A DNA stretch of 37,525 nt, taken from contig CAIKBD010000278.1 in NCBI GenBank assembly GCA_903825565.1, positions 1 to 37,525 of the forward strand. The letters are read 5' to 3'. The translations under genes were made by a program, and so were the position numbers. The notes below the pieces were generated by a model. It saw nothing but the letters and a program-made list of their open reading frames with translations. It searched no databases and had not been told where the DNA came from. This document shows positions 18,861 through 37,401 of this stretch, piece after piece; positions within the stretch are counted from its first letter, which is position 1, and each line of letters opens with the position of its first letter. This DNA comes from an uncultured Anaerolineales bacterium (GTDB lineage Bacteria; Chloroflexota; Anaerolineae; UBA4142).

Positions 18861-18872
18861 CAAAGGTGACAT

Positions 18873-20024: not shown

Positions 20025-20189
20025 TTTGCATCCTGTTCAATTTGGATTGGTTTAATTTTCTGCCGTCACTTTCGCACAGACAAGACCCAGGGTCAATCTT
20101 TTTTTCCCCCAGTTTTAACCCACACGTAAATTGGCTTTGAGAGACGCAAAAGGATTTTGGGCGGGGAAAGATAGGTCTTGGGCGAAATA

Positions 20190-20349
20190 AATGCCTGAGA
20201 AACACCCAGAATGAACGGGCACGATTGTAGACTTGGGAGAACCGAGAAAAGCAAGCGTTGCGGGATTTAGGATGTGGCGGGCTTGGAAAATGCCTGTGAA
20301 ACACCCAGAATGAACACAGACGATTGTGGACTTGGGAGAGCCGAGAAAA
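20190..20349. repeat. Two diverged 61-bp direct repeats at 99-bp spacing (20190-20250, 20289-20349)
   Basis: AATGCCTG(A/T)GAAACACCCAGAATGAAC...CGATTGT(A/G)GACTTGGGAGA(A/G)CCGAGAAAA in both copies. Confidence 0.8.
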
Positions 20350-20540
20350 CCACTGCCCGCGAGTGTAGATAGGGCTGGAAAAACAAGTTGCCCGGAGAAA
20401 CCGCGTGAATCGGCGGTAGGCATTGGTTTTGGGATTGTAGGTGTTTGGTGCGGAAGCGTACCGCCGAAGCGGACTGGGTTGATGATACTGACCACCTCGG
20501 CGGCATACCGGCTGTAGCGTCGCCACTACAAGCAGTCCAC

Positions 20541-21752: not shown

Positions 21753-21881
21753 GGTTTCCTCCGTTTGCAAAGTTGGTAGCGACAACTTGAACCAGAGGAA
21801 CTGGTGGGTCAAACGCAATGCCGTATGCCGTAGACGCATCCAGTTCCGAGCCACGCGCTACGCCGAAGGTTGTGGAAAAAT

Positions 21882-21911
21882 CAAGCCGCTCAGTCAACAG
21901 TGAGCGGCTTG
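21882..21911 (-). terminator. Intrinsic terminator downstream of the recombinase gene
   Basis: CAAGCCGCTCA / TGAGCGGCTTG 11-bp stem; on the minus strand followed by ATTTTTCC. Confidence 0.7.
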
Positions 21912-22048
21912 AACCGAACAGTTAGAATGGGTTTGGATGGCACGAATCCATCCCAATTTTGGATATTTAACGAATCCAAGCGGCTGGGCGCGAGCGACGC
22001 CACCGCGCTCCGCCGAAGCGGACTGGGTCTGGTGATACTGACCACCAC

Positions 22049-23227
22049 TCACTTGCCAAACGCCTGCTGATGCGCCGCGTGCAAACGCGCACTGGACACT
22101 TTGGCATAAATCCGCGTGGTCACCGGCGAGGAATGCCCAAGCAAGTCTTGCACGACCGAGAGATCACCCGTAATTTCCAGCACCCGGGTTGCGAAGGCGT
22201 GCCGAAGGGCGTGCGGTGTCAACGGCGCATCGAGCCGGGCGCGGCTGGACAATTCCGCAAAGATGCACTGGATTTGATGCGTGGTGAGCGGTAAACGTTT
22301 CTTGGCGCTGGGCAAACTGTGGCGGGTAAAGACCGGCAGTTCGCCGAGCGCGCGCGTCAGCGTGCCATCTTTGCGCTCGCGCAAGTACGCTTCGATAGCG
22401 TCCCAGGCGGTCGCGTCGAAATAGACCACCCGTTCTTTGTTGCCTTTGCCAATCACGCGCGTCGAGTGGTTGCGCTTGACCAGGTCGCCGCGCGTCAGTT
22501 TGACGATTTCGCCCACGCGCATCCCCGATGAGCGGAGCGCGTGGATCAGGGCAACGTCGCGGAGTTGGCGCAAGCGCGCCTGTTCCGCGCGGGCAGGGGA
22601 CGCGTGTGGTGCTTGGGCGTCGTAAGTCGTGGCTTCGAGCAGGGCGGCGATGTGGTCGTCGTCGGGGGTCTTGGGCAAGCGCGACCGTTTGGAGCGATTG
22701 TCGTGCACGAGTTTGAGCAAGCGTTCGGTATCCACCGCGTCGAAGGCGACGATGCGTTCGAGGACGCACCAGCGCACGAAGCGCACGACGGCGGTGAGGT
22801 AGGTCTCTCGCGTGACCGAGGCAAGGGGTGGGGCTTCGTTCTTCATGGCGACCGCGAAAGCAATCACATCATCCACCGTCACCGTGGTAGGGTCTTGACA
22901 CTGGGATTGGGTGAAGAAGCGTGTGACGCCAATGCCGTACAGTTTGACGGTGTTATCAGACTTGCCGGTGCGGAGATAGTCGAGAAAGCGGTGAATGGTC
23001 AACGGCACGGAACGCCGCACGGCATCACTAGCGTTCGGGGTGTTGCCACGTGGCGCGTTGGCTGGCTCGGCGTGTTGAGCATCGGCGTGCGTGGCATCGT
23101 TGGCATGTGCGGTACCGTCGCGTGGCGCATCGGCGTTCGGTGTGCCGTTACGTGTACGTGGCGCACGCTCGGCATCGCGCGCCAGATTTCCAGACTGCTG
23201 AATTTGAAAAACCATAGAGACATCCAT
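22049..23227 (-). CDS. Tyrosine recombinase/phage integrase (XerC/D-like)
   Basis: HALRSSGMRVGEIVKLTRGDL, TPHALRHAFATRVLEITGDLSVVQDLLGHSSPVTTRIYAKVS (RxxH...H/W...Y box); low-complexity N-terminal extension. Confidence 0.95.
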   Translation of the reverse strand: MDVSMVFQIQQSGNLARDAERAPRTRNGTPNADAPRDGTAHANDATHADAQHAEPANAPRGNTPNASDAVRRSVPLTIHRFLDYLRTGKSDNTVKLYGIGVTRFFTQSQCQDPTTVTVDDVIAFAVAMKNEAPPLASVTRETYLTAVVRFVRWCVLERIVAFDAVDTERLLKLVHDNRSKRSRLPKTPDDDHIAALLEATTYDAQAPHASPARAEQARLRQLRDVALIHALRSSGMRVGEIVKLTRGDLVKRNHSTRVIGKGNKERVVYFDATAWDAIEAYLRERKDGTLTRALGELPVFTRHSLPSAKKRLPLTTHQIQCIFAELSSRARLDAPLTPHALRHAFATRVLEITGDLSVVQDLLGHSSPVTTRIYAKVSSARLHAAHQQAFGK

Positions 23228-23273
23228 CCTTGGGGTAGGGGCGTGGTACGTGTCGGCTTGGCGTTGCGTTCAT

Positions 23274-23313
23274 GTTTCTATGTCGCATAACTGTCATTAA
23301 GCGACATAGAAAC
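23274..23313. promoter_or_regulatory. 40-bp palindrome with dif/attP-core-like layout
   Basis: GTTTCTATGTCGCATAA-CTGTCA-TTAAGCGACATAGAAAC: 17-bp arms with one mismatch, 6-nt centre. Confidence 0.75.
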
Positions 23314-23423
23314 AGAAGCGCATTAACGCGATTTTTGATGTTCCACGCTCGATCTGGCGCATCGCGCGATACGCAATGCGCGAGCACGGGATTCACGGCT
23401 TGCGTCAATCCGCCAGCGCACGC

Positions 23424-23891
23424 TCAACCATTCGCGTTTGGCGGCGTGGCATCGAGCGTGCCAGTAGACTCGTCAGCCACTTTGCGGCGCATCTTGTTGA
23501 GCAAGGCTTCCAATGGATTCAAGCCCGCTGTGAACCAAGCCGCCGCGAACGCCATCATGATTACGTCGCCGCACTCTTCCGCAAACGCTCGTTCCGTGTA
23601 CGGTTTGTGGCGCGCCGGATTATTCCGCTTCCACTTGCCAGCGTCTTTGGCATTCTGTTGCTCGAAACACTCGCCGAGTTCGCACACGGCAAAACCCAGC
23701 GCCTCCCGTGCGTCTGGAATCGCCAAGCCGCGCACGGCGTAGTATGCCTGGATAACTTGCGCCAGTTTGTTTGCGTGCGGGAACGCCTCCGCAATCAGTG
23801 CCTCGAACTGACCAGAGGTCGCCGGTGCCGCCGGACGAGCTGGCGCGGTTGCCGGTTTTCGTTTTGACTTTGGTTTGGGCATGTCGGTCAT
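23424..23891 (-). CDS. MazG-like nucleotide pyrophosphohydrolase-family protein
   Basis: LGFAVCELGECFEQQNAK...FAEECGDVIMMAFAAAWFTAGLNPLEALLNKMRRKV matches the all-alpha NTP-PPase pattern (ExxE...ExxD). Confidence 0.7.
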   Translation of the reverse strand: MTDMPKPKSKRKPATAPARPAAPATSGQFEALIAEAFPHANKLAQVIQAYYAVRGLAIPDAREALGFAVCELGECFEQQNAKDAGKWKRNNPARHKPYTERAFAEECGDVIMMAFAAAWFTAGLNPLEALLNKMRRKVADESTGTLDATPPNANG

Positions 23892-23931
23892 CCTTTTATA
23901 AAGTTAGATTGTGGAATTTTTAGAATCAACC

Positions 23932-24270
23932 CTAGAATATATCTGGCGCATGTTCCTCCACTCGCCCAGTGCTTTGGGCGGGTTGCTCAGTGCTTTGGGC
24001 AGGTAACAAATGCCGTAATTCCCAAACCTGGATCGGTTTGGGCTTGTCGTTCAGTGCGATTTCGCGCGCCACTTGCTCGGTCGTCGGAATGACCCGATAG
24101 ATCGACGCGCCACCGAACCACTGCGTTACCAGCGAGCCGTCAGATTGCGGAATATCAATCCGCCCCACGACGGAGCCAAAATGATTTTCCTCCGTGATCC
24201 GCCCTGCCAAGCGGATGTGTCCCATCAATTCAACGACTGCCCACGTTTCGATGTGGGTTTGCTCTGCCAT
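23932..24270 (-). CDS. Phage/plasmid-type conserved hypothetical protein
   Basis: MAEQTHIETWAVVELMGHIRLAGRITEENHFGSVVGRIDIPQSDGSLVTQWFGGASIYRVIPTTEQVAREIA. Confidence 0.7.
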   Translation of the reverse strand: MAEQTHIETWAVVELMGHIRLAGRITEENHFGSVVGRIDIPQSDGSLVTQWFGGASIYRVIPTTEQVAREIALNDKPKPIQVWELRHLLPAQSTEQPAQSTGRVEEHAPDIF

Positions 24271-24534
24271 AATCCATCTCCTTCGTGCCAAGCCGTGTCA
24301 CCAACCGTGCCAACGGCATATTATATTTGTGAAAATAATCGCAACCGGCGCGTACCGGCGCGTACCGGCGCGGATTTTTTTGGTCTTTTTTTCAGAAAAC
24401 CCCACAAATACCGAGGCAATATGCATGTGGAGGCAAAAAAAATCTGAAAACCCGCGCCGGTTATGAAAAACAGAGCAATGCCCTGCTCTGACCGTGTTGC
24501 TCAACCGATTTCACACGCATCCACGTGCATCGGG

Positions 24535-24810
24535 TCAACTCGGCGGGCACCACTCAAGCATATCCGCCGAGAAGTACGCGCCATACGCATCATGACTTTC
24601 GACCGCCCAACACAGCCAGGTGTCACCCCGTTGAAAGACGGCTTGGGCTTCGTTGCCGATGCGAACAATATCACCAATGGCTGGAAACCCCCAGCCCTGG
24701 GCACGATGGAACGTGTTGCCGTTCAAACTCGTTCTAACCACGCGATAGGTTTTACCTCTAACCAGCACAACTAGGTCAGAGACCTTTGCTCCAAATACTG
24801 GTGCACTCAT
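24535..24810 (-). CDS. Hypothetical protein
   Basis: MSAPVFGAKVSDLVVLVRGKTYRVVRTSLNGNTFHRAQGWGFPAIGDIVRIGNEAQAVFQRGDTWLCWAVE...; in line with neighbouring genes, RBS-like AGGGAGG upstream. Confidence 0.6.
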   Translation of the reverse strand: MSAPVFGAKVSDLVVLVRGKTYRVVRTSLNGNTFHRAQGWGFPAIGDIVRIGNEAQAVFQRGDTWLCWAVESHDAYGAYFSADMLEWCPPS

Positions 24811-24832
24811 AAACGCTGACCTCCCTCTTTTC

Positions 24833-25051
24833 TCACCGTGTGACGACGCACAATATTCTTACGTCGTGGCGGTGTAAACACTGCCAGTCTGCCGCGTTGA
24901 TCCGCCGCGTAGCCGGACTAGCCGACTCGCGGACTGTGACGATACCTCTGAACGAATCCACGCTCACCACCACTCCCGTGATTGGAGCGTTGGTCTGGGG
25001 ATCGCGCCACACGACCCGCTGATTTTCGTAGCAACCTTTTGCGTTCACCAT
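24833..25051 (-). CDS. Small hypothetical protein
   Basis: MVNAKGCYENQRVVWRDPQTNAPITGVVVSVDSFRGIVTVRESASPATRRINAADWQCLHRHDVRILCVVTR; start overlaps the stop of the upstream GTG-start ORF. Confidence 0.55.
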   Translation of the reverse strand: MVNAKGCYENQRVVWRDPQTNAPITGVVVSVDSFRGIVTVRESASPATRRINAADWQCLHRHDVRILCVVTR

Positions 25052-25224
25052 CCTCTCCTTTCTTCTTCGTCTTTTGTCTCCACGAACAACATGCGATTCA
25101 TTTGCCGGGCGCGTTCGAGTTGGCGATAGAACTCGTCCAAGTTGCCGCGCTCGGTGGCTTGCATGGCAAGGTCGTGCGCCTCGCACCACCATTGATACAG
25201 TTCGGCTCGGCTGGGTTTGAGCAC
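25045..25224 (-). CDS. Small GTG-initiated hypothetical protein not in the ORF track
   Basis: GTG at 25224: (V)LKPSRAELYQWWCEAHDLAMQATERGNLDEFYRQLERARQMNRMLFVETKDEERRGW*; ends overlapping the ATG of the next gene. Confidence 0.55.
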   Translation of the reverse strand: MLKPSRAELYQWWCEAHDLAMQATERGNLDEFYRQLERARQMNRMLFVETKDEEERRGW

Positions 25225-25263
25225 AATGGGTCTCTTTTTTACGATGACTCATTAGCATCATGA

Positions 25264-25773
25264 CTAGAACAACGCAATCTGCCGTTGAATCCGCAAATGC
25301 GTTTCGATTTCGACGTGTGGCACGCCACCGGTCGCGGCGCGCCAAAAAAAATCAAGGTCAACGTACTGAGAAAGCAATTCGCGGTCAGTAGCATTTACGC
25401 GCCGTTCAAAAAACAACTCGCCTTTGGTTTTGGTTGTGCGTTCATTTTCCGCAAGCATCAAGTCCTTGCGCTGGGCATTGGTTCGGCGCGCAAGTGTGAC
25501 CAAACGGCGCAAGCGGCGCGGCAACAACCTTTTTAGTTCGTCGCGTGCAACCTTGGCGCGCGCCGCTTTGGTTTTCAACGAGTTTGACCACACGAGAATA
25601 AGGTACGGGTCAGTCGGACACCCGTCCCACGCCGGCACAATCTCCGTGAATTTGCCCAACTTTCTTTCACCCCATCCCAGGTTTGTCAGGACGCCGACTA
25701 CATCGCCGATGATGTATGATTCGGTCATCCCGTTAATGCCTGGGTCGTGCTCAAACACCGCGACAACAGTCAT
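25264..25773 (-). CDS. Hypothetical protein (full-length copy of a duplicated N-terminus)
   Basis: MTVVAVFEHDPGINGMTESYIIGDVVGVLTNLGWGERKLGKFTEIVPAWDGCPTDPYLILVWSN... Confidence 0.65.
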   Translation of the reverse strand: MTVVAVFEHDPGINGMTESYIIGDVVGVLTNLGWGERKLGKFTEIVPAWDGCPTDPYLILVWSNSLKTKAARAKVARDELKRLLPRRLRRLVTLARRTNAQRKDLMLAENERTTKTKGELFFERRVNATDRELLSQYVDLDFFWRAATGGVPHVEIETHLRIQRQIALF

Positions 25774-25787
25774 AATCAAAATAACCT

Positions 25788-25991
25788 TTATTCTCCACGA
25801 ACAGGTTCGACGGCTACCCAGCCTTCGCCACCGCAAGTTGAGCAGGACTCGCCATCACATTCAGGGCAGGACATAGTACCACCCTCGGGGTCGTCAACCC
25901 ACCCGCGACCGTCACACTCATCGCAGTCGGGGAACTCCATTTTCTTGCCGTGACAATTTGGACATTCAACCCATTTGTTTTCGTCTGACAT
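25788..25991 (-). CDS. DnaJ-type zinc-finger small protein
   Basis: MSDENKWVECPNCHGKKMEFPDCDECDGRGWVDDPEGGTMSCPECDGESCSTCGGEGWVAVEPVRGE; CxxCxGxG-like repeats. Confidence 0.75.
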   Translation of the reverse strand: MSDENKWVECPNCHGKKMEFPDCDECDGRGWVDDPEGGTMSCPECDGESCSTCGGEGWVAVEPVRGE

Positions 25992-26049
25992 ATTTTACCT
26001 TTCTTTCGGCTGGAAGGCGCCGAACGGCGAGCGTTAACTGCGCCGCGCA

Positions 26050-26253
26050 CTAATTACCGTCCGATTCAACCGCCGCCTGCGCGGCGTCCGTTGCACGCAA
26101 TGTTGGAGCGCAATTCGGGCAGTAGTCTTTACCACTGCGGAACACCCAACCATTTTTACGCGCTTCTCTACGTGCTTGCTCCGACGTGTGACTAGCAAAG
26201 CCCATATCGCCACACTCATCACATTTGACCCAAACATCCTTTTGAATACTCAT
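26050..26253 (-). CDS. Zinc-ribbon small protein
   Basis: MSIQKDVWVKCDECGDMGFASHTSEQARREARKNGWVFRSGKDYCPNCAPTLRATDAAQAAVESDGN. Confidence 0.7.
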   Translation of the reverse strand: MSIQKDVWVKCDECGDMGFASHTSEQARREARKNGWVFRSGKDYCPNCAPTLRATDAAQAAVESDGN

Positions 26254-26275
26254 TGTCGCTCCAAGGCTCGCGTTA

Positions 26276-26323
26276 GGCGCAAGGGCGGTAGAACTTTGGC
26301 AGTAATGAGCCGCCCTTGTCGCC
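26276..26323. repeat. Imperfect inverted repeat with a bulged base, flanked by GTTAGGC and GTTAGAC
   Basis: GGCGCAAGGGCGG (26276-26288) / CCGCCCTTG(T)CGCC (26310-26323). Confidence 0.6.
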
Positions 26324-26329
26324 GCATTG

Positions 26330-26521
26330 TTAGACCGCGTGCCGTTCGCTGAAAGTTTCCATCCAAAATAACAGAATCTTGCGAGCCTGTTCTTGCGATA
26401 ATTCAGGAAAGTCGCGGAGCAAATACGGACGCGCTCCGAACATATTCGTTACGCCACTCTCGCGTAACTCATCAAGATATTCGAGATGCTCATCTGTTAC
26501 AAATTCAGGACGTTCTGACAT
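26330..26521 (-). CDS. Small phage/plasmid-type hypothetical protein
   Basis: MSERPEFVTDEHLEYLDELRESGVTNMFGARPYLLRDFPELSQEQARKILLFWMETFSERHAV. Confidence 0.7.
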   Translation of the reverse strand: MSERPEFVTDEHLEYLDELRESGVTNMFGARPYLLRDFPELSQEQARKILLFWMETFSERHAV

Positions 26522-26536
26522 GGGAAACCTTTCTGC

Positions 26537-26662
26537 TCACAACGAGCGGTATAACTTCTTTTCACCCAGGTTTGTCAGGACGCCGACTACATCGCCGATG
26601 ATGTATGATTCGGTCATCCCGTTAATGCCTGGGACGTGCTCAAACACTGCGACAACAGTCAT
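26537..26662 (-). pseudogene. Truncated duplicate of the 5' end of the 25264-25773 gene
   Basis: MTVVAVFEHVPGINGMTESYIIGDVVGVLTNLGEKKLYRSL*; near-identical DNA to 25672-25785. Confidence 0.8.
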
Positions 26663-27188
26663 AATCAAATAACCTTTCTTGACGTGGTAGTGTGTGATAC
26701 ACGCCGCGCTCAATTACTGTTACCGTGTTGGTGTCGTCGGTCGCCATTGATACGACTTTTCCATCGCGCGCAATGCACTCATGGATAAAACCCAACTGCG
26801 TGTCACGGTATTTGCCGTCGCTTCGGAACGGCGTTCGATCTGTTTCGATAACCGTGAGCGTCCAACACTTGAGTAAATAGCAATACTCGCCGGTTTGGTC
26901 TGCCGCTGGGTGAGCGGCTCCGATCCGATTCGCGCAAAATTCGTTGTTGCAAGTGCAATCGGTTTGTGGCGATACGTCCACTACAACGTTCTTGCGCGGA
27001 GCACTATAATACGTGGCAAACACGGCAACCACGTCTCCAACGTGAACGATGTCGGCGACGGTTTGCGCGACTTCCTGATAGTACGCGTTGCCATCGGCTC
27101 CGAAAACTACTCCATCCTGCTCGATGCGGATTGGTTGGATTGGCAGATAGTCGTCCGGGTCAAGGCAACGGATAAAACTATTTGGCAT
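26640..27188 (-). CDS. Hypothetical protein
   Basis: MPNSFIRCLDPDDYLPIQPIRIEQDGVVFGADGNAYYQEVAQTVADIVHVGDVVAVFAT...; C-terminus reads into the duplicated segment. Confidence 0.6.
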   Translation of the reverse strand: MPNSFIRCLDPDDYLPIQPIRIEQDGVVFGADGNAYYQEVAQTVADIVHVGDVVAVFATYYSAPRKNVVVDVSPQTDCTCNNEFCANRIGAAHPAADQTGEYCYLLKCWTLTVIETDRTPFRSDGKYRDTQLGFIHECIARDGKVVSMATDDTNTVTVIERGVYHTLPRQERLFDYDCCRSV

Positions 27189-27197
27189 GTTGTGCCT

Positions 27198-28070
27198 CTA
27201 CGCTATGGGTTGGAGTCTTGGAAATTCTGTCCACGCCTTGCCATCAAGCAGTGGAATATCGTGCTCGTTTTGTGGTGATGCGATAAGCCGATCTGGTTCG
27301 CCGGGCATGGGCATCCACCTGCCCCACTGCTTGAAGAAGAATGGCACTTGCGACTTGAGACAATCATCGCGGAGCGACCGCGCCCAGTCTGGACGCATCG
27401 GGCGGGCGTTGGGTCCCGATTCGCCGCCGGCGATGACCCAGTGAATCAAACCAGACGCGATCCACGTCTTTGGGTGGGTGTATTGCATCCACACATCCAG
27501 ATTCACATTGTCCAAAAGCGGCTCGCAACTCACAAATCGCACCGCCGCCGGAATTTGCAATAACAGCGGGATACGCCGCTCCGCCGCTTTTTGGTGCTCA
27601 ACGCTGACGCCAAACCAGACATTCGGCAGGGGCAAGCCGATAAACCCACCGCCAAACGAAATTCCCGGCGTTTGGGTCAATGCCCAATTGCGCTCAAAGA
27701 ATTTCAGAGCGCGCTCTGGTCGCTTGGTCAAAATTTGGAACGTGTGCTGTGGCGCATCGCGCATCACCTCGAACAACCGATAGATAATCCAATCCGAAAC
27801 CTGGGGATGAAATAGATCGCTCATCGAATTGACAAATATCATGCGCGGCTTTTTCCACCGCAACGGTTGGTCAAACCGCTCTGGGTGCAAGCGCACATTG
27901 TATTTCGCGTTCGATGCAGACCATTCGCGCCACGCCTGACCCGCCGCGCCGCGAAGCCGTTTATCCGTGCGCTCGGCGTAGCAGTGCGTGCAACCGGCAG
28001 ATATTTTAGAACAACCAGTCACCGGGTTCCAAGTCGCATCCGTCCACGCAATTTTAGATTTGTCTCCCAT
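27198..28070 (-). CDS. Phage Gp37/Gp68-like (DUF5131-type) protein with three-Cys cluster
   Basis: KIAWTDATWNPVTGCSKISAGCTHCYAE...MIFVNSMSDLFHPQVSDWIIYRLFEVMRDAPQHTFQILTKRPERA...WVIAGGESGPNARPMRPDWARSLRDDC...FFFKQWG. Confidence 0.9.
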   Translation of the reverse strand: MGDKSKIAWTDATWNPVTGCSKISAGCTHCYAERTDKRLRGAAGQAWREWSASNAKYNVRLHPERFDQPLRWKKPRMIFVNSMSDLFHPQVSDWIIYRLFEVMRDAPQHTFQILTKRPERALKFFERNWALTQTPGISFGGGFIGLPLPNVWFGVSVEHQKAAERRIPLLLQIPAAVRFVSCEPLLDNVNLDVWMQYTHPKTWIASGLIHWVIAGGESGPNARPMRPDWARSLRDDCLKSQVPFFFKQWGRWMPMPGEPDRLIASPQNEHDIPLLDGKAWTEFPRLQPIA

Positions 28071-28145
28071 TGGTGTATCCTCCTTTGCCGTTTCGGATTT
28101 GCTCTGTCGTGAGCAGAAAGGACATATTGTTGCGCGCCATCGGAC

Positions 28146-29612
28146 TTACCTCAACAAATCCGGGTTGAACCGAATCATCCCACTCGCACGCACAATCAAG
28201 CGTCGTTTCGCAAGCCGTGCCAGCGCGCCACCGAACGCGCCGCCATTCGCAGAGTAGCGCGATTCGACCGCTAGTTGTTCCACACGCACGCCGCTTGGAA
28301 ACATCGGATACAAGTCGCCTAACGTTTCCAAAATTTTCTTTTCGGTCTTGTCGAGTTTTTCGCTCGCTTTTTGCACTAACGCGGTAACGCGATTCGCCGA
28401 TGCCATGTGGCTCGGCAACGATGCGGATTCCGCCGCCGATTCGCCGCCAAGCGCAGTTTTGATTTGCTCATTGATTGCCGCCAGCGCGCCAGTGAGTTTG
28501 GCGATTTGCGCGTCGCGTTCGTTCACGGCGAGTGCAATTTGTTGTTGCACATCTTCATCGGTGATCGTGTCCGCTTGTTGCGTCTCGAGCGCAGTACGCA
28601 ATTCGTCATTCTCTTTTTGCAACCGCTCGGCGCGTTCCACGATTGCCGCTTCGACGCGCGAAGATTTGGTCAATTGCGTTTTAGCCGGTATGAATTTGGC
28701 GAACGCTTTTTGCAACGAGTCCGTGTCAACGGCTTGGGCGATGTTGCCCGTCGCCGTGAACGCATCCTCGTCCGCTTCTGGGTCATAGTGAAAGGTTTCG
28801 CGGCGGTGAAACTGCACACAGTCGAACGTCTTCAACCAGGCGGGGGAGAGCACCAAACCAGTCCCGTCGGCGAGCGCGGGCAACCTGCCAATGAAGGTGT
28901 TCACCAAATCGCTCTCCGCACCTTGCGCGTCAAGCCAATCCCGCGCCGCGTCAATACTGCCCGGGTCGGTTAAGCGCATCACGATGAGCGCGTTGACCTG
29001 GGACAACGCATCCTTGTTGATCATCTGCGGGCGTTGCGCGATCAACGTCATACCGATGCCCTTATTGCGTCCAATGCGAATGAGTTTGTCCATCGCACCG
29101 TACACGCCGGCAACGGATTCCATCACCCGTTGCGGAACGAACTCAGGCGCTTCCTCGATGACGAGATGCACTGGCGCATGATTGATTTCAAACAATGTAT
29201 TACCAAAATCCGCGACGACTTGCCGCCAATGCGACTTGCTTCGCATTTGCGACAGGTCAATCACAGTCGGAACACGCATCTCGGCGACGTACCGCGCAAT
29301 CGCACCGCCCATTTCCGGCGTGAGTTCGATTTGCCCGCGTTGCCCGCCGATGACGGCAATCGGCAACCCTTTGCCTTTGCCGTCTGCGCTGATGCCCAAA
29401 TCCCACCAACGCCCAACCGGATCGAAGATGACTACGGGCACGCCCTGGCGAATGAACTGCTCGACGAGGACCGCCGAGTTGTGGGTCTTGCCAGAACCCG
29501 AAATCCCGACGACGCCCAGTTTTTTCGTCGCGGCACGCGCCAGCGAAATTTCAAATTGCTTGTCGTTGAGTACACTTCTCCCAAGGGTTAGCACTTTTGT
29601 TTGAACCATCAC
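28146..29612 (-). CDS. HerA/DUF87-type ATPase
   Basis: KLGVVGISGSGKTHNSAVLVEQFIRQGVPVVIFDPVGRWWDLG (Walker A), HLVIEEAPEFVPQR (Walker B), RNKGIGMTLIAQRPQMINKDALSQVNALIVMRLTDP (RecA-like C motif). Confidence 0.9.
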   Translation of the reverse strand: MMVQTKVLTLGRSVLNDKQFEISLARAATKKLGVVGISGSGKTHNSAVLVEQFIRQGVPVVIFDPVGRWWDLGISADGKGKGLPIAVIGGQRGQIELTPEMGGAIARYVAEMRVPTVIDLSQMRSKSHWRQVVADFGNTLFEINHAPVHLVIEEAPEFVPQRVMESVAGVYGAMDKLIRIGRNKGIGMTLIAQRPQMINKDALSQVNALIVMRLTDPGSIDAARDWLDAQGAESDLVNTFIGRLPALADGTGLVLSPAWLKTFDCVQFHRRETFHYDPEADEDAFTATGNIAQAVDTDSLQKAFAKFIPAKTQLTKSSRVEAAIVERAERLQKENDELRTALETQQADTITDEDVQQQIALAVNERDAQIAKLTGALAAINEQIKTALGGESAAESASLPSHMASANRVTALVQKASEKLDKTEKKILETLGDLYPMFPSGVRVEQLAVESRYSANGGAFGGALARLAKRRLIVRASGMIRFNPDLLR

Positions 29613-29627
29613 GATGCTCCTAAGATT

Positions 29628-29861
29628 TTATGCGGTTTGGGCAATTTCGAGCAGACACTCGACGCACAACGCCTCTAGTTCCAGGGCGTTGAATAGGGCG
29701 AGCGCTTTACGCTCGGGCGCGGTTTCCAGATACCGCTGTTGGGCACAGTACGTGGCAAACCACAGCGGGTTATTCAACGAAGCCGTGTGCGTCAGGTGCC
29801 ACAGACCGCCCGGATAAAGCCGGGCGGCTGTGGTTTGACGACTGGATACCAGTGCGCTCAT
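29628..29861 (-). CDS. Small hypothetical protein
   Basis: Start overlaps the stop of the upstream gene (29858); MSALVSSRQTTAARLYPGGLWHLTHTASLNNPLWFATYC... Confidence 0.5.
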   Translation of the reverse strand: MSALVSSRQTTAARLYPGGLWHLTHTASLNNPLWFATYCAQQRYLETAPERKALALFNALELEALCVECLLEIAQTA

Positions 29862-30478
29862 GCGTCCTCTGCGGGTTCATCGTCCGAATCGTCGGCGTCG
29901 TCATCGCCGGCATTGTCGTCGTCGCCAGATTTCGCGCCGGCTGATTCTGTCAATGCGCTGGCAAGTTTGGCAATAATGGGATGCGCTTCCGCGTCAGCCG
30001 CGTTGGCAGTTGCTTGCGCTGGAGCCGCTGACTCGGCGCCCGGCTTGCCACCCTGGGTTCCGTTTGCAACATTCGCGTCCTCTACTTTGCCGATGACGTA
30101 AATCGGAAACATCATTTCGCCCGCCACTTCTTTCGGGCGCACCTCGAACACAATGCGCTTGCCCACGCACGAGTGCATATCATTTCCAAACAACTTGTTG
30201 AGTTTCCGGCGATTGGCGGTGATGGTCACCGGGAAACCTTGCGTCGCTTCTTTGAAAAACAGAACGGGCGTGGGCACATTCGCTTGAGCGCGTTTCATGT
30301 ACACCGGCAGGATGTCTACCCGCGCGACCGTGAGCGTGAACTTTTGGTGCGGCGTGATATATTCCCCGCACAAATATCTTTCAAAGTTGCTCCACTTGGG
30401 TTTGGCGGCATTGCCATTCCCGTTTCCGTTCCCTGCACGCGGCGTTCCTGGTTGGTTAGACATTGGTTGGTTAGACAT
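29858..30478 (-). CDS. OB-fold-like protein with highly acidic C-terminal tail (possible ssDNA-binding role)
   Basis: MSNQPMSNQPGTPRAGNGNGNGNAAKPKWSNFERYLCGEYITPHQKFTLTVARVDILPVY...VLFFKEATQGFPVTITANRRKLNKLFGNDMHSCVGKRIVFEVRPKEVAGEMMFPIYVIGK...GDDDNAGDDDADDSDDEPAEDA. Confidence 0.7.
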   Translation of the reverse strand: MSNQPMSNQPGTPRAGNGNGNGNAAKPKWSNFERYLCGEYITPHQKFTLTVARVDILPVYMKRAQANVPTPVLFFKEATQGFPVTITANRRKLNKLFGNDMHSCVGKRIVFEVRPKEVAGEMMFPIYVIGKVEDANVANGTQGGKPGAESAAPAQATANAADAEAHPIIAKLASALTESAGAKSGDDDNAGDDDADDSDDEPAEDA

Positions 30479-30540
30479 TGGTCTTCTCCTTTCGGTTGAG
30501 ATGGGTGACGATGCGTTCGTCATCTGGGATGACTGTCGCA

Positions 30541-30939
30541 CTAATGAACTGAAGGGTCAAGCCGTTTGGATTTAACTCGTTTGGTTGTGGAAGATAGAGC
30601 ATCCACGCGCGCACTCGCCTGACGCCGAATCGGTTTGGCGCATTTTCGGTGCATCATGTTATAGCCCCGTTTGGGTTTCGATGTGAGCGCGTTCGGTTCT
30701 GCATTGGCTTGCCGCAACCGCAAATTCTGCTTTTCCAAAAACGCGGCGATTTGTTCCGGCGTTGACTTGACCAGGCAATACGGATTCTCGGCGTGCGCCG
30801 GTTCGCACTCGGCGCAATACGCGTGCAAGGGCTTGCCGTTCCGCTTGACGCCGAGGGGACCGCGACACGCATAATTCTTTAGGTTGATGTTCGTGTTAAA
30901 GCCCCTGTACGTGGTGAGCCAGATTTTGGAATTTGCCAT
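30541..30939 (-). CDS. Hypothetical protein
   Basis: MANSKIWLTTYRGFNTNINLKNYACRGPLGVKRNGKPLHAYCAECEPAHAENPYCLVKS...; AGGAGG RBS. Confidence 0.55.
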   Translation of the reverse strand: MANSKIWLTTYRGFNTNINLKNYACRGPLGVKRNGKPLHAYCAECEPAHAENPYCLVKSTPEQIAAFLEKQNLRLRQANAEPNALTSKPKRGYNMMHRKCAKPIRRQASARVDALSSTTKRVKSKRLDPSVH

Positions 30940-30940
30940 T

Positions 30941-32203
30941 CTAGACCTCCTGTTCAAAATTCAATTGAACCGCACGCTTGGTGCGCCGCACCGCGAGCGG
31001 TTCCGCTTGGTCGGGAATGCCGACCGTCCGCCCACTGCGCGGCGTGACCCCCAAGTTCACCAAGTTCACACGCGCGGTCAGCGCAATGTCACGCAACACC
31101 TCTTGCACCTCACCTACCGTTCGCCGTTCGGGGGCTGCCATCATGCCCGCAATGCGGTTGATTTGCGCTTCCACGTCTTGGTTCTGGGTCAGATTCATCG
31201 CGCGCCACGTTTCAATCGTGTTTCGCACTTGCAACGCCGAACGCCCCACGAGTTTACCGTTATTCTCCCGCATCCTTTCCAGCACATTCACAAACCCTTC
31301 GTAAATCAAACTCAGCGCTTGTGTTTCCAGGTCGCGCATAAATCCATCCACCAATTGCTGTTTGCGTTGGCGCGCCTCCTGCACAACATCCTCGTTCATC
31401 CGCCGGAGCATGGCTTCGCGTTCGTTGGCTTTTTTCAAAGCCGTGCGTTCGTGCACACGCTCAATTTCGCGTTGCGCCTCGATGCGTTCCTTCTCCGCCG
31501 CATCTTCGGCAAGCAACGACGGGAGCGGAATGAACGACAACTCGGTGGTAAAGCCAAATGAATCATACACTTCGCGCTGGGTCGGAATGGCGTTCTGAAT
31601 GCGTGCCATGAACACCTCTACAAAAGCATCTTCGGTGAGCCGGGTTGCCCCGACGTCGAGCGACTTGGGGTTGAGTCGAACGAGCCGCTTGTAAGCCACA
31701 CGCGCCGCAACAGCATACGCATCAATCAACTGACCCAGGATGGGTTTCCAGTCGCGCTTGATGCGGTCGCGCATTGCAAAATAGCGACGCTCGTATTCCG
31801 CGTTCGTGGCTTTCCATTCCGCATACGCGCCCAGGGGCACGAACTCGCCCCAATAGGTTTTGTACGCGCGGGCGCTCAGCCCCTTGCGCGCGCCGCTCTC
31901 AATCGAATCGAGTTCGCGCAGGATGCTGGGGGGCAGGAGCCGTTTCGCGCCCAGGGTCATCAGTTCGTCGTAGACGCGTTGCTCGCCCGCGTCGCGCGGT
32001 GTGGGCAGACCCAGGTCTTGCAGGTTGATCCGCGCGGTGGCACGCCAGCGGCGAATGTGCAGGCGCACAATGACGCCGGCTTTCATCAGCGTCAGCCACG
32101 CGGGGGTTTGCGCGTTGACCGTCGCGCCGGTCGCCGCGTCGAGTTGCGCTTGCAGGGCGGCGAGTTGGGTTGTTTCGTGTTTGGGTGTGGATGATTTGGA
32201 CAT
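30941..32203 (-). CDS. Charged, coiled-coil-rich protein adjacent to AAA+ ATPase (tentatively DUF3150-like)
   Basis: MSKSSTPKHETTQLAALQAQLDAATGATVNAQTPAWLTLMKAGVIVRLHIRRWRATARINLQDLGL...; AAGGAGGTAACC RBS. Confidence 0.75.
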   Translation of the reverse strand: MSKSSTPKHETTQLAALQAQLDAATGATVNAQTPAWLTLMKAGVIVRLHIRRWRATARINLQDLGLPTPRDAGEQRVYDELMTLGAKRLLPPSILRELDSIESGARKGLSARAYKTYWGEFVPLGAYAEWKATNAEYERRYFAMRDRIKRDWKPILGQLIDAYAVAARVAYKRLVRLNPKSLDVGATRLTEDAFVEVFMARIQNAIPTQREVYDSFGFTTELSFIPLPSLLAEDAAEKERIEAQREIERVHERTALKKANEREAMLRRMNEDVVQEARQRKQQLVDGFMRDLETQALSLIYEGFVNVLERMRENNGKLVGRSALQVRNTIETWRAMNLTQNQDVEAQINRIAGMMAAPERRTVGEVQEVLRDIALTARVNLVNLGVTPRSGRTVGIPDQAEPLAVRRTKRAVQLNFEQEV

Positions 32204-32299
32204 TTCGGTTACCTCCTTGTGAGGCAACATTCGGTTGAGAAAACTGGTAGGTCAAGCAATTACAAATAATTGCACTGACGGATAGATGCGTAGTTGCGT

Positions 32300-32581
32300 T
32301 TACGAATAGTTGCGCGGCACAGAACGCCGCTGTCTGAGTTCGGTCAGGGCTTGGCGAAACAATTCGCGCTTGCGGGCGCGCGTGCGATGCGCGCCAACGC
32401 GTGACGAGACCAAGGTCAAATCTGATTCCGCAAAATACATTCCAAATGCCGCAAAATCGGTGATGTAATAATTGCCGGTGCGCCGATCCCGATACAGAAT
32501 CATGGCAACATCACCCAACACCGTACACACAATGTCGCCGATGTAAAAGCGCGGGTGGCGACTAAAGCGAATCCCTCTCAT
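32300..32581 (-). CDS. Small hypothetical protein
   Basis: MRGIRFSRHPRFYIGDIVCTVLGDVAMILYRDRRTGNYYITDFAAFGMYFAESDLTLV... Confidence 0.55.
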   Translation of the reverse strand: MRGIRFSRHPRFYIGDIVCTVLGDVAMILYRDRRTGNYYITDFAAFGMYFAESDLTLVSSRVGAHRTRARKRELFRQALTELRQRRSVPRNYS

Positions 32582-32664
32582 AATCTACCTCCGATTGCCA
32601 AGTGACCACACCAACCTGGCTATGTGGTGGGTGAACGCGTGCCCGCTCACCCACCACCGAGTAG

Positions 32665-34497
32665 TTAAAGTGACCGCACCGATTTGCCGTTGCCGCGCGG
32701 TTGCAATTGCTCAATCTTTTCTTCGACCGCCTCACGGTTTTCCCATTCCCGCCGATACCGTTCGGGAAGCAGGTCCGGGTCATTGCACTCGCGGAGCGCA
32801 ATCGCCGTCATGAATTCGATTTCGCGCGTCGAGGGACGAAACCGCTTGACCGCACTGGTGAGCGCGGCGGCGGGTGCCAACCCATCGAAATACGCCAACT
32901 GGCACGCCTTGCCAATGAGATTGTTCAATTCCGAACCCGTCCACCCAGCCGTTGCCGCGATTATTTCATCCGCGATGCCAGCACTCCCCAAGTCCAACCC
33001 CCGTTCACGCGCCCGCACTTGCAGGATGCTCCGCCGCTCTGGGTCTTCGGGAGCCAGGAACGGAATTTTCAAATCAAACCGACCGTCGCGCCGAAATGCC
33101 GCGTCCAGATTGTCCGGGCGATTGGTCGCCCCGATGAACAGAATGTCGCCGCGATGCGATTCGTCCGCTGTGAATTCCAGCAGACCTTTCAAGAGCCGAT
33201 TGCCAACCCCCGAATCGCCGCCCCCAGTCCGCGACACGCCGAGCTGGTCAATCTCGTCAATAAAAATCAGCGTCGGCGCCATCGCAATCACCGCCGCTTT
33301 GAACCGTTCCCAATTCCGTTCGGTCTCGCCCACAATCCCACCGAACAACTGCGCGGGATTCAACGCCAGCGCATTGATGCCCGATTCGCGCGCAAACGCT
33401 TTTGCCAACATCGTCTTGCCCGTGCCCGCCGGTCCCGCAAACAAAATACCCATCGGCACCAGGTCTTTGCGCCCTTCTCGAATCGCTTGCGCGATTTGAC
33501 CCAGCCGGGCTTTGATACGGTCGTGCCCCCCAATAGCCTCAAACCCGAACGTCAAATCCATCGAATCCGCCACCTTGCCGAACTCGGACGCCATCAGCGA
33601 GTGTTTGCGTTCCCGCACCAACGCGCGCGTCATCACCCCACCCGTTTGCCCCGCGCGGAGCGCAATGTCCTCGATGTGGATGCGTCCGAGCATCGCGGTT
33701 TCGTTGGCAATCCCTTTGACCGTCAGCCCCTCTTCCAATTGCAAGGCGCGCAATTTCACTTGCCCGGCAACGAACGTTTCGCGTTCGTCCGCCGTGGGCA
33801 GTGGAATTTCGACTTGCTCGTATTTGCTGGTAGCGCGGCGAATCGCGGGATGCAAGTCCGCCACGTTTTCGGTGACAAGAATGACCAAGTTGCCGGTGTT
33901 GGCAATCACGGGGTCGGTGCCCCACCGTTCGAGCGTGACCAACACGCGCCGGTCATCGGGGGACATGAACGCCAGGTCGGTTTTGGGGCAGACCATTTCG
34001 GCGTATTCGATAATCACCGCAACCTGCCCGACCAATTGATCACCGTTCGCGTCCACGCCCTTGCGGAGCAAGGTTTCGAGAAGCGGCAACGCGGCGGCAG
34101 GGGCTTTGGGCAAGGGCGGTTCAGGTTTCTGCGCGGGGTTCGTGCCCGTGCCGGCGAGGTTGCCGACGAGCGCGGCGAGCGCATTCGGGTTACTGGGGTC
34201 AGCGGTGGGGGCGGTCGCGTCATTGGTGTACGCGTCAAAGTCTTGGCGCATGGCGGGCAAGGCAAACGTGATGCCTTCGCTAATATTGTAGCGGACGACG
34301 ACTTTTTTATTGACCATTCGGCTGAAGAGAAACGTGGTCAGCGGGATGCACCCCGTTTCGTTCCAGGTCACGTAATCGCGCACGTTGAAATGGACGATGA
34401 ACGCATGACTCTGACTCGCCATATACGCCTCACTGAGCGCGCGCCACCACGCGGGCACAACCCCGTTGACCGGTTTCTTGGCAATGCGGTTAGACAT
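32665..34497 (-). CDS. AAA+ ATPase (CDC48/Ycf46-like) with degenerate N-terminal ATPase-like half
   Basis: FEAIGGHDRIKARLGQIAQAIREGRKDLVPMGILFAGPAGTGKTMLAKAFARES (Walker A), PTLIFIDEIDQLG (Walker B), GDILFIGATNRPDNLDAAFRRDGRFD (sensor 1/Arg finger). Confidence 0.95.
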   Translation of the reverse strand: MSNRIAKKPVNGVVPAWWRALSEAYMASQSHAFIVHFNVRDYVTWNETGCIPLTTFLFSRMVNKKVVVRYNISEGITFALPAMRQDFDAYTNDATAPTADPSNPNALAALVGNLAGTGTNPAQKPEPPLPKAPAAALPLLETLLRKGVDANGDQLVGQVAVIIEYAEMVCPKTDLAFMSPDDRRVLVTLERWGTDPVIANTGNLVILVTENVADLHPAIRRATSKYEQVEIPLPTADERETFVAGQVKLRALQLEEGLTVKGIANETAMLGRIHIEDIALRAGQTGGVMTRALVRERKHSLMASEFGKVADSMDLTFGFEAIGGHDRIKARLGQIAQAIREGRKDLVPMGILFAGPAGTGKTMLAKAFARESGINALALNPAQLFGGIVGETERNWERFKAAVIAMAPTLIFIDEIDQLGVSRTGGGDSGVGNRLLKGLLEFTADESHRGDILFIGATNRPDNLDAAFRRDGRFDLKIPFLAPEDPERRSILQVRARERGLDLGSAGIADEIIAATAGWTGSELNNLIGKACQLAYFDGLAPAAALTSAVKRFRPSTREIEFMTAIALRECNDPDLLPERYRREWENREAVEEKIEQLQPRGNGKSVRSL

Positions 34498-34557
34498 GAC
34501 AGACTCCTTTCTTTTCTTTGTGGGTATGTTTCGGAATGGATAGATTGGGTTAGATTA

Positions 34558-34584
34558 ACCGGTCGGACAACTTACCCGACCGGT
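34558..34584 (-). terminator. Hairpin between the 34595 gene and the AAA+ gene (terminator/attenuator candidate)
   Basis: ACCGGTCGG (34558-34566) / CCGACCGGT (34576-34584), perfect 9-bp stem; no long T-run. Confidence 0.5.
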
Positions 34585-34594
34585 GTAAGTGACA

Positions 34595-34801
34595 CTAGGT
34601 TTGCCCAACCGTCGTGTGCGCGGTTTCGTGTTCGTGGTCGTGGCGATGTTTCTCGATGTCGCCCATGCTCTCGAAATTCACACCACGCATTTGCAGTTCA
34701 CGCGCAATTTGCTGAAGCGCGGCGGACGCTTGCTCGAAATCGCCCTGCCCGACCGCGAACGCTACCGAACCGGCTGTGCCGATAACCAACGAGACCAGCA
34801 T
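34595..34801 (-). CDS. Small membrane-anchored hypothetical protein
   Basis: MLVSLVIGTAGSVAFAVGQGDFEQASAALQQIARELQMRGVNFESMGDIEKHRHDHEHETAHTTVGQT; abuts upstream stop. Confidence 0.55.
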   Translation of the reverse strand: MLVSLVIGTAGSVAFAVGQGDFEQASAALQQIARELQMRGVNFESMGDIEKHRHDHEHETAHTTVGQT

Positions 34802-35314
34802 TTAGACCTCCACCGTGAGCACCAGTGCGCCGTTCGCGGCATACTGGGCATTTTGAAGCGCGAATTGGGATGCGACAATTTGTTGCACCTTCTGTTGGAA
34901 CAAGACCCCCAGCAATTGATTGAACGCGGCGTTGAGTTGCGTCAAAATGGCGTCGGCTTGCTCTGGGGTGAAATGCTTGGACGCCGGCAAGTCCCAACCA
35001 TCGCGGAATGTGAGCGTGCCGTCCCGTTCCAGCCGAACGGCGCACTGGTCGCAGACCCAATCCACATACGCACCGCCGACCAGTTTTTCTGCGGGAATGG
35101 TTTCGGTGATAGTGTGATTCTGTCTCCACTGATTCCAACCTTGCCCCCAAGCGGTTCCCCGCTTGTCATTGTAGGCGGTGACGTGTTCGGGCTTGGTGCC
35201 GACGATTTGGGCAACGAGCGTTTTCACGCCTTCAAGCATTTGGGGATTGTCGAGGACCAGGCGCGGGTCTACGACGGCTTTGGCGGTACGCACCGCCACG
35301 AGATTACACGGCAT
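34802..35314 (-). CDS. Hypothetical protein, first gene of the AAA+ module
   Basis: MPCNLVAVRTAKAVVDPRLVLDNPQMLEGVKTLVAQIVGTKPEHVTAYNDKRGTAWGQGWNQWRQNHTITE...; AGGAG RBS. Confidence 0.65.
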   Translation of the reverse strand: MPCNLVAVRTAKAVVDPRLVLDNPQMLEGVKTLVAQIVGTKPEHVTAYNDKRGTAWGQGWNQWRQNHTITETIPAEKLVGGAYVDWVCDQCAVRLERDGTLTFRDGWDLPASKHFTPEQADAILTQLNAAFNQLLGVLFQQKVQQIVASQFALQNAQYAANGALVLTVEV

Positions 35315-35408
35315 TTGCGTTTCTCCTTCTGACGTGCGGTCAGCACGTCGGGTTTGATTTTCTGCCGCTGACATTCGCGGGAATGAATGAGTGTGTCAAT
35401 CGCATATA

Positions 35409-35431
35409 ATAGTATATTTGAGATATACCAT
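35409..35431. promoter_or_regulatory. Operator-like site ATAGTA-N11-TACCAT
   Basis: ATAGTATATTTGAGATATACCAT; matched in layout by 35748-35770. Confidence 0.6.
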
Positions 35432-35499
35432 TTAAGCCAAAAAGAACGCCCAAGCCAAGCATCTTGGGCGGCGGAGACCGAGCGCGCCGAGTTGCGGAG

Positions 35500-35745
35500 T
35501 TAGGATGTCTTGGGGCGACCGACTGCGCGCCGCTGGCGCAAAAATGTGGCGATGTCTTGCCGCGTAAAGAGTGGTGTGCGCCCGTAGCGTTTGGACGGCA
35601 CCAGGTCGCCGATTTGGTAGATATGTTTTTTGACGGCGGCAGGTTTCATTTTGAGCAGGGCTTGGACTTCGGCAATCGTGAACAATTTTTCCTCGGCGTT
35701 GCCCGCAGATTCGAGTGCGGTTAGGATTTTGCGAGTAGTCATCAT
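35500..35745 (-). CDS. Helix-turn-helix DNA-binding protein (excisionase/MerR-like)
   Basis: EEKLFTIAEVQALLKMKPAAVKKHIYQIGDLVPSKRYGRTPLFTRQDIATFLRQRR. Confidence 0.85.
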   Translation of the reverse strand: MMTTRKILTALESAGNAEEKLFTIAEVQALLKMKPAAVKKHIYQIGDLVPSKRYGRTPLFTRQDIATFLRQRRAVGRPKTS

Positions 35746-35747
35746 AA

Positions 35748-35770
35748 ATAGTATACACCAAATTTACTAT
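35748..35770. promoter_or_regulatory. Operator-like site ATAGTA-N11-TACTAT upstream of the HTH gene
   Basis: ATAGTATACACCAAATTTACTAT, symmetrical ATAGTA/TACTAT half-sites. Confidence 0.65.
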
Positions 35771-35816
35771 ATTTCCAAGCCCAGGCGCACGGCTGCCCGC
35801 CTGCCCGCCTGGCAAC

Positions 35817-35845
35817 TTGACCAGAGCGGGCGATGATGCTACACT
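35817..35845 (+). promoter_or_regulatory. Sigma-70 type promoter for a small RNA
   Basis: TTGACC - 17 nt - TACACT. Confidence 0.65.
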
Positions 35846-35851
35846 CTAACT

Positions 35852-35922
35852 AGCCTCAGGTGGTCTATCACCTCGGGCTTGCATGCCTCGCGGGTTCCGT
35901 CAAAACCACGCGGGGCTTTTTA
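35852..35922 (+). ncRNA. Candidate ~70-nt small RNA with two hairpins and intrinsic terminator
   Basis: GCCU-C-AGGTG(GTCTAT)CACCT-C-GGGC then GCCTCGCGGGTT(CCGTCAA)AACC-A-CGCGGGGC followed by TTTTTATTTCT; promoter directly upstream. Confidence 0.6.
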
Positions 35923-35958
35923 TTTCTCTCCGCCGATTATGCAAAAAAGAGCAACCAC

Positions 35959-35989
35959 ACACCACACCGCGTCCGGCGCGGTGTGGTGT
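35959..35989. repeat. Perfect 13-bp inverted repeat
   Basis: ACACCACACCGCG-TCCGG-CGCGGTGTGGTGT. Confidence 0.85.
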
Positions 35990-36227
35990 GGATGCTGTGC
36001 TGGCTTCTCGCTCTACCCGCCAACCCGTTCCTTTTCAGCGTCAGGCGTGGCAAGTGGGTTTGTGGTTTGATTATAGAATTTATAGAAATCAGGCACAGCG
36101 CATATGTTGCGGCATATCTGCCGAATCGCCACATGCCAATTGAGTTCTCACCAAGGTCTTTGCACGGCGTGAGAGACCAAGCCGGCAAATTTACAAAGCT
36201 TGCATGCGGATGCATTTAACTTGGCTG

Positions 36228-37286
36228 TTATTGACAGTCCCAGAAGCATTGTCCTGCGGCATTGCAACCGTAGAAACAGATCCCTCCCGGGCGGGGCGGC
36301 AGATTGGGCTGTGAGGTACTGGGGGATTGGGGTTGACTAGGCTGCGCTGCGCTGGGTGCCGGTGGCTGACTACGTTCCCCAAGTGTCATGAGGAATGGTG
36401 CGCCATCACAAGTTAGGTCTGTCCCATTCGTGTCGCGAATGCGAACGATCCAATAAAAGTTTCCAGTTCTTCCGGCAAACGCCCACTGGAAAAACTCGAC
36501 CGCAAGGAGTTTGTCGCGCGTAGTGCCAATCTTGGTCGGCGTACCGTTTTCGGGCCAAGCCATCACATCAAACACTTCATTCGGTTGCAACTGATAATTG
36601 GTTTGCCAACGGAAGATGGTTCCAAGCGGGGCAAAACTGCGACCATTCGGCGGATCATACTGGACAGGAGGTGGAATGCAGGCGCGAGCTGGTTGCGCCT
36701 GGGTGACCGAATCGGTTCGCCGCCAAAAACTTACGGCATCGCCGTTTGGAACAAAGACGACACTGTCGGTCACATTGTCACAAGCGCCATCCGATAACAA
36801 CGTAACCGCCCAGTTGCTTGACCAATTCGCGCTACGCATCAGAATCAACCAGCCGCCCCAATCATTTGAATATTCGGCTTCTGCCACGACACCAACGTGA
36901 CCAGCGCCATCTCCAATGTTGGAAACTTCAATTAACTGATCTGTCTGGGGGTTCCAAACGTAGACCACGGCATCGGGTTGCATAATGATAATGTCGCCGC
37001 GTTGGGCGGTGTTACTGCGATTGCGCAACTTGGTTTCGCCGACTACGGCTTTGTTGCCCCAGTAGAGCGGAGTTGCCATCTCGGCAGCAGTATCCCAGTT
37101 ATGTCCGGGAATGCTTGGACGCGGACCACCAAACAATTTGTTGACCACGTAGGTTACACATTGGCAAGCACCGGTACCTTGGGTGTTGGATGCCGCAGAT
37201 GCTGGGAGCGGGAAACCGACAATGGTCGCCCATCCAGCCACGCTCAGTAACAAAAACATTCCCAGTGTGATGGCTTTGTCTTTCAT
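36228..37286 (-). CDS. Secreted CHAP-domain protein with Cys-rich C-terminal tail
   Basis: Signal peptide MKDKAITLGMFLLLSVAGWATIVGFPLPASA; GACQCVTYVVNKLFG (CHAP Cys), GHNWDTAAEMA, QRGDIIIMQPDA, GHVGVVAEAEYS; tail CFYGCNAAGQCFWDCQ. Confidence 0.85.
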   Translation of the reverse strand: MKDKAITLGMFLLLSVAGWATIVGFPLPASAASNTQGTGACQCVTYVVNKLFGGPRPSIPGHNWDTAAEMATPLYWGNKAVVGETKLRNRSNTAQRGDIIIMQPDAVVYVWNPQTDQLIEVSNIGDGAGHVGVVAEAEYSNDWGGWLILMRSANWSSNWAVTLLSDGACDNVTDSVVFVPNGDAVSFWRRTDSVTQAQPARACIPPPVQYDPPNGRSFAPLGTIFRWQTNYQLQPNEVFDVMAWPENGTPTKIGTTRDKLLAVEFFQWAFAGRTGNFYWIVRIRDTNGTDLTCDGAPFLMTLGERSQPPAPSAAQPSQPQSPSTSQPNLPPRPGGICFYGCNAAGQCFWDCQ

Positions 37287-37401
37287 AAATTCAGGTGCGG
37301 GATGCTCCGCGACCCGCTTCTAGCGGGTGGACGCTTCGTGACGCACCTTCCCCCTTCTGTGATAAAATCTGGATATGGATCAAAATGCTAAACGGCATGA
37401 C

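Follow-up and report, generated by a model that had tools for sequence, protein, structure and literature searches.

A conserved RNA element of Anaerolineae with a predicted antisense RNA opposite a predicted terminator-ended leader

A 37,525-nucleotide (nt) contig from an uncultured Anaerolineales bacterium (GenBank assembly GCA_903825565.1, contig CAIKBD010000278.1; this whole stretch is called the window) contains, near one end, a short segment with a promoter, two hairpins and a T tract. What does this segment do, and for which genes? A sequence-only reading of the window had judged a stand-alone small RNA (sRNA) more likely than a leader. Since the opposite strand carries a conserved −10 box and a terminator hairpin, this sRNA is probably cis-antisense to a leader. 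We are inclined, with some reserve, to read the locus as a two-strand control module, in which a terminator-ended leader would be paired with a cis-antisense sRNA that favors an early stop of the downstream operon. It belongs to an RNA family of Chloroflexota bacteria that is undescribed so far.

Predicted RNAs on the two strands

The window copy comprises the following features. P1, P2 and P3 denote the hairpins of the leader in their order on the minus strand.

35817-35845, plus strand: sRNA promoter, with TTGACC at 35817-35822, a 17-nt spacer and an extended −10 TGC-TACACT at 35837-35845 (direct sequence and consensus scan)
35852-35922, plus strand: predicted antisense sRNA of ~71 nt, its start placed 7 nt past the −10 box (promoter and T tract, fold, covariation)
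35852-35879, plus strand: sRNA hairpin 1, AGCCUC-AGGUG(GUCUAU)CACCU-CGGGCU, the complement of leader hairpin P2 (sequence, covariation)
35885-35916, plus strand: sRNA hairpin 2, GCCUCGCGGGUU...AACCACGCGGGGC, the complement of leader hairpin P1 (sequence, covariation)
35885-35921, plus strand: intrinsic terminator, consisting of hairpin 2 and the T tract (TTTTT, 35917-35921)
35936-35941, minus strand: leader −10 box CATAAT, one base off consensus; relatives mostly have TATAAT or TAnnnT
35793-35929, minus strand: predicted leader RNA with P1 (35916-35885), P2 (35879-35852), a core and P3; its start is an estimate
35803-35831, minus strand: P3, a terminator-like hairpin with 5′ arm 35831-35821, loop 35820-35813 and 3′ arm 35812-35803

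The sequence, a consensus scan and the fold bear out the promoter (TTGACC-N17-TACACT), the two hairpins and the T tract at the place where the sequence-only reading had put them. The predicted fold of 81 nt has an energy of −34.6 kcal/mol compared to −19.5 ± 2.9 for shuffled sequences (z = −5.25), and none of 200 shuffles reached the native value. Given that the plus-strand promoter, both hairpins and the T tract are conserved, a ~71-nt plus-strand sRNA (about 35852-35922) is very likely, and the window copy likely encodes an intact antisense RNA. The same reading had let the 5′ GCCUC pair alternatively with the right arm of the terminator. This proposal is not supported: the pairing shows no covariation, and its energy (−9.0) lies near that of permuted partners (−8.85 ± 0.19).

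Relatives, covariation and strand polarity

Two further close copies of the element occur in the same genome (contigs C204 and C380), making three similar copies in all; the copy on C204, an intact one, precedes hsdM. Additional copies turned up in the taxonomic family. A covariance model seeded by nine copies (R1) matched 18 of 20 genomes in the order, and 36 copies were aligned (A5). A second model (R2) matched 71 of 396 genomes of the class and ten of 400 genomes in a search at phylum level; hence the family is centered on one class of Chloroflexota. Taken together, the covariance searches yielded 95 members, mostly from this class (Anaerolineae), on contigs labeled Anaerolineae or Chloroflexi. 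When 84,980 species were scanned with a sequence pattern, six matches appeared in other phyla (Betaproteobacteria, Amycolatopsis, Planctomycetota, Thiopseudomonas, Streptomyces and Oscillatoria), which we attribute to chance, as the covariance model supports none of them. Searches of phage, plasmid and viral-contig collections returned no match to the family. A comparison with Rfam, as the sequence-only reading had suggested, detected only tRNA in the window and 20 further loci at gathering score, with no match to ctRNA or pT181; for 10 relatives at E ≤ 5 it gave tRNA and one unrelated snoRNA model far under its cut-off. A subgroup with a longer P2 (GGUGCC....GGGCACC; L074, L081, L090, L094 and L101, where L numbers designate loci) is perhaps a distinct subtype.

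Among the 95 members, the plus-strand promoter follows the pattern TTGnnn-N17/18-TGnTAnnnT. In the segment from P2 to the P3 loop, the best promoter has a score of 9.9 compared to 6.4 in shuffled segments, with a spacing of 17 in 66 members and of 18 in 17, and the extended −10 TG is found in 65/95 (21% in shuffles). On the minus strand, upstream of P1, 71% of members contain TAnnnT with at least 5/6 matches (11% in shuffles), and 29% contain a perfect TATAAT (1.1% in shuffles). Both terminators are followed by tails. At the plus-strand terminator, the A fraction in the minus-strand reading is 0.69 over the adjoining 9 nt (background 0.22), and behind P3 the T fraction is 0.61 (background 0.21).

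The hairpins are also supported by covariation, which the sequence-only reading had named as a check on homologous loci. In A5, 26 of 31 pairs show double changes and 90.2% of cells pair; the covariation value is 0.42, compared to 0.17 after shuffling and at most 0.10 after sliding. In A6 (59 members) all 31 pairs show double changes, 91.4% of cells pair, and covariation is 0.53 compared to 0.165 in shuffles. These counts lean toward the model to which the alignments were fitted, but the slid and shuffled controls show no effect of comparable size.

A genuine RNA helix tolerates G·U pairs, which appear as A·C when the opposite strand is read. In the minus reading the G·U:A·C ratio for P3 is 63:7 in A5 and 75:6 in A6 (138:13 in total), and for P1 and P2 it is 59:77 over both alignments, which were built using minus-strand pairing rules. 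A strand-neutral recount that required only Watson-Crick stems gave 71:11 for P3, 12:23 for P1 and 8:41 for P2, all these tallies counting related sequences more than once. The excess of G·U over A·C in P3 argues for a minus-strand RNA hairpin. Conversely, P1 and P2 favor the plus strand or neither strand; their mismatches correspond to plus-strand wobbles, which suggests that these hairpins serve a plus-strand RNA, perhaps both strands. The earlier proposal of a stand-alone sRNA, predicted to be made from the plus strand with a promoter and a terminator of its own, is well supported by conservation (promoter, covariation and tail). It overlooked the other strand, with its conserved −10 box and terminator hairpin P3.

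Downstream genes and possible modes of action

Downstream of the leader, in the minus direction, we encountered many genes for anti-phage defense. The first set of loci includes genes for HsdM (L009, L010, L073, L076, L090), HsdR (L080, L085), a ResIII helicase (L067), a PLD-SNF2 helicase (L069), BrxA (L070), a DruE-like protein (L074), DUF499/HmaC (L078, L101), a methylase with a nuclease domain (L087), a type IIG enzyme (L093) and, at 544 nt, Cas3 (L079). In the later class-level set we found BrxA (L141), a BglI-like nuclease (L142), a TIR/ThsB-like protein (L158), a type I methyltransferase (L161), a SAVED/STAND-like protein (L163), a BrxP/DndC-like protein (L167), methylases (L169, L170, L181), an HmaA/DrmD-like protein (L176), a PLD-SNF2 protein (L180) and HsdR (L192). 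The first open reading frame (ORF) within 300 nt is a defense gene, or heads an operon with one, at 17 of 29 loci of the first set and at 11 of 33 loci of the class-level set, by a hand tally made without a measured background. The first tally is partly biased, as three of the nine seeds were hsdM-linked; the class-level set was chosen independently of context, and its ORF annotation is selective.

The reverse test starts from the defense gene. The order contains 38 HsdM_N genes. Five of these are immediately preceded by the RNA in the same orientation, where about 0.004 would be expected by chance (~55 RNA matches in roughly 100 Mb), and two more head the same operon. The same test with the BrxA profile turned up a further two BrxA genes within the order, both of which lack the RNA. 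Unrelated genes also follow the leader, such as those for an acyl-CoA synthetase (L091) and a penicillin-binding protein (L086). Hence, a defense context is frequent, not universal. The pT181 system controls a plasmid replication gene; among the downstream genes that we tested (defense, unknown or other) there was no replication-initiator family. Of the functions listed in the sequence-only reading, antisense control and attenuation are consistent with the leader layout and the downstream defense genes, and copy-number control found no support among these neighbors. Overall, that reading is partly supported.

Members that adjoin tRNA genes include L144, L148, L151, L152, L166, L177 and L186. 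One contig (L148, 1032-9225) contains three RNA copies, two of them with a tRNA-Gly gene ~120 nt after; an integrase, a Dam-like methylase and a possible nuclease lie between the copies.

How could a two-strand module of this kind work? Transcription from the minus-strand promoter would start the leader, in which P1 and P2 form before the terminator P3 can form ahead of the downstream operon. The plus-strand promoter inside the core and P3 would produce the ~71-nt RNA, an exact complement of P1 and P2 that ends at its own terminator. By pairing with the nascent leader this RNA would favor P3, so that transcription toward the downstream operon ends prematurely. With little antisense RNA present, the 3′ side of P2 could capture the 5′ arm of P3 by pairing, and the polymerase would pass. 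Both promoters, the hairpins, the polarity of P3, the two tails and the frequent defense genes come from comparison of the family sequences; from these we infer transcription of both strands, the direction of the effect and its trigger. The antiterminator pairing is suggested by the complementarity of the P2 loop and 3′ arm to the P3 5′ arm, which amounts to −13.1 kcal/mol in native pairs and to −10.9 ± 0.24 when partners are swapped between members. Controls with P1, the core and the P2 loop against the P3 3′ arm were flat, and a signal between the P2 5′ arm and the P3 3′ arm is explained by shared arms.

Several observations weigh against such a module. An antiterminator helix in fixed register is 66.5% paired compared to 63.4% in shuffles (5/500), which supports it weakly, and predicted folds of the nascent leader retain P2 in most members. 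Many members have no close downstream defense gene, and in nine class-level members a tRNA gene follows 80-170 nt past the leader, mostly on the same strand. In the window itself, P3 is bulged, its 3′ arm is repeated and the T tract is lost.

Some of these points would suit an sRNA that stands alone and regulates other mRNAs in trans, with P3 merely shielding the sRNA promoter or closing upstream transcription, and with defense genes that are self-promoted or read through. The lean of the P1 and P2 mismatches toward plus-strand wobbles, the members without a near downstream gene or beside tRNA genes, and a candidate promoter of the window's first downstream gene are all compatible with this idea. 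We nevertheless consider it unlikely, in view of the conserved minus-strand −10 box just upstream of P1, the distance from RNA end to gene start, which is often below 100 nt and leaves scant room for a second promoter, and the recurrence of defense genes on the downstream side of the leader. A terminator-bearing leader on the minus strand that acts as a riboswitch or binds a protein, with the plus promoter incidental to a conserved aptamer core, seems more improbable still. Conservation of the core (AGUGUAGCAY) and of the UCAA loop in P3 would befit an aptamer, and P3 is indeed best read as a minus-strand hairpin; however, the conserved positions coincide with an extended −10 and a −35 box at 17-18 nt and vary as promoters do, the T tract of the plus-strand terminator is conserved, and P1 and P2 carry plus-strand wobbles. 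Our first working view had been of this type (a riboswitch-like leader on the minus strand only, with the plus promoter as an artifact of the conserved core). We abandoned it because the core is an extended −10 with fixed spacing and the P1 and P2 mismatches are plus-strand wobbles. An S-adenosylmethionine or other known riboswitch was rejected, since the scanned loci have no such Rfam match. Finally, three similar copies in one genome, and upstream homology between two of them by blast, could point to a duplicated repeat or mobile cassette with palindromes that have no regulatory role. For a neutral repeat, compensatory changes across many families of the class, together with two oriented promoters and two oriented tails, would be unexpected, and we regard this explanation as very improbable.

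The window copy and related systems

The covariance model matches the window copy at 35793-35921 on the minus strand with 112.2 bits. This copy lies at one end of an integrase-bearing region, and window positions 18788-35745 are probably an integrative element. At the window copy and in this region we identified the following features.

35750-35778, minus strand: candidate own promoter of the helix-turn-helix (HTH) gene, TTGGAA-N17-TATACT, a few bases 5′ of the start codon (consensus scan, sequence)
35500-35745, minus strand: first gene past the leader, coding for an 81-residue HTH_17 protein (Pfam 1.1e-05, slightly under the curated cut-off)
32665-34497: AAA ATPase
28146-29612: HerA-like protein
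27198-28070: DUF5131
22049-23227: tyrosine integrase
20541-21854: N6-methylase
18788-18861: tRNA-Val

The operon past the HTH_17 gene includes the AAA ATPase, the HerA-like protein and DUF5131. Since P3 of the window lacks a T tail and the HTH gene is possibly self-promoted, attenuation at this copy may be weakened. We searched the window for an exact repeat (at least 14 nt) of the tRNA-Val 3′ end and found none elsewhere. Directly before the leader −10 box there is a strong inverted repeat, CACACCACACCGCG..CGCGGTGTGGTGTG (35967-35995), followed by a minus-strand T run; a shorter form of this repeat occurs in C204. In addition, window positions 37282-37393, a palindrome-rich stretch upstream of a 352-residue ORF, resemble a stretch of C204 (86% over 113 bp) and may represent another repeat or control module.

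The layout of the family resembles that of two known antisense attenuators. In pT181 RNAI/RNAII, too, a leader contains hairpins and a terminator, and a short counter-transcribed RNA is complementary to the leader hairpins (e.g., PMC3753616); here, however, the downstream genes are mostly defense genes or unknown, and the scanned loci match neither pT181 nor another Rfam family. In RnaG/icsA of Shigella the antisense RNA encounters the growing mRNA and shifts it to an intrinsic terminator, in place of the antiterminator that forms otherwise (PMC5394118). The layout is the same, and in RnaG/icsA the antisense promoter is the stronger one. RnaG differs in being 450 nt long and controlling one virulence gene, whereas here one family of ~71-nt RNAs precedes many genes. 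As attenuators of the pT181/RnaG type require, the antisense promoter sits on the opposite strand within the leader region (core and P3). Covariation and tail predict a short antisense RNA that forms hairpins and stops at a terminator of its own, and an intrinsic terminator precedes the gene in the family at large, the window copy having the hairpin without the T tract.

For EcoRI Rna0 and Eco29kI, a review describes reverse promoters and a short antisense RNA of 88 nt that regulates a restriction-modification system; according to its passages on these systems, weakening the antisense RNA raised phage restriction (PMC3874152). Those RNAs lie within the restriction-modification genes and act by convergent promoters and pairing, and the same passages describe no conserved attenuator hairpins. 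BrxR/CapW and RptR likewise represent one small regulator family reused beside defense systems (PMC12255303, PMC9122589); they are DNA-binding proteins, whereas the regulator here would be an RNA.

Tentatively, and with somewhat less confidence than in the two-strand module itself, we propose that one RNA-only antisense attenuator family is reused across the class Anaerolineae and keeps a range of unrelated anti-phage systems at a low level (type I restriction-modification, BREX, Druantia-like, Hma/DUF499, type IIG, TIR and PLD-helicase). A phage that disturbs host transcription may lift this control as the antisense RNA, being short-lived, decays. If true, this family would be the RNA counterpart of BrxR/CapW and RptR. 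The silencing and switching of defense systems are poorly known, and the shared regulators described so far are proteins. A conserved two-strand RNA module in front of many unrelated defense operons would provide a simple control circuit and enlarge the short list of antisense attenuators, and it would serve as a sequence tag for finding defense genes in a poorly studied phylum.
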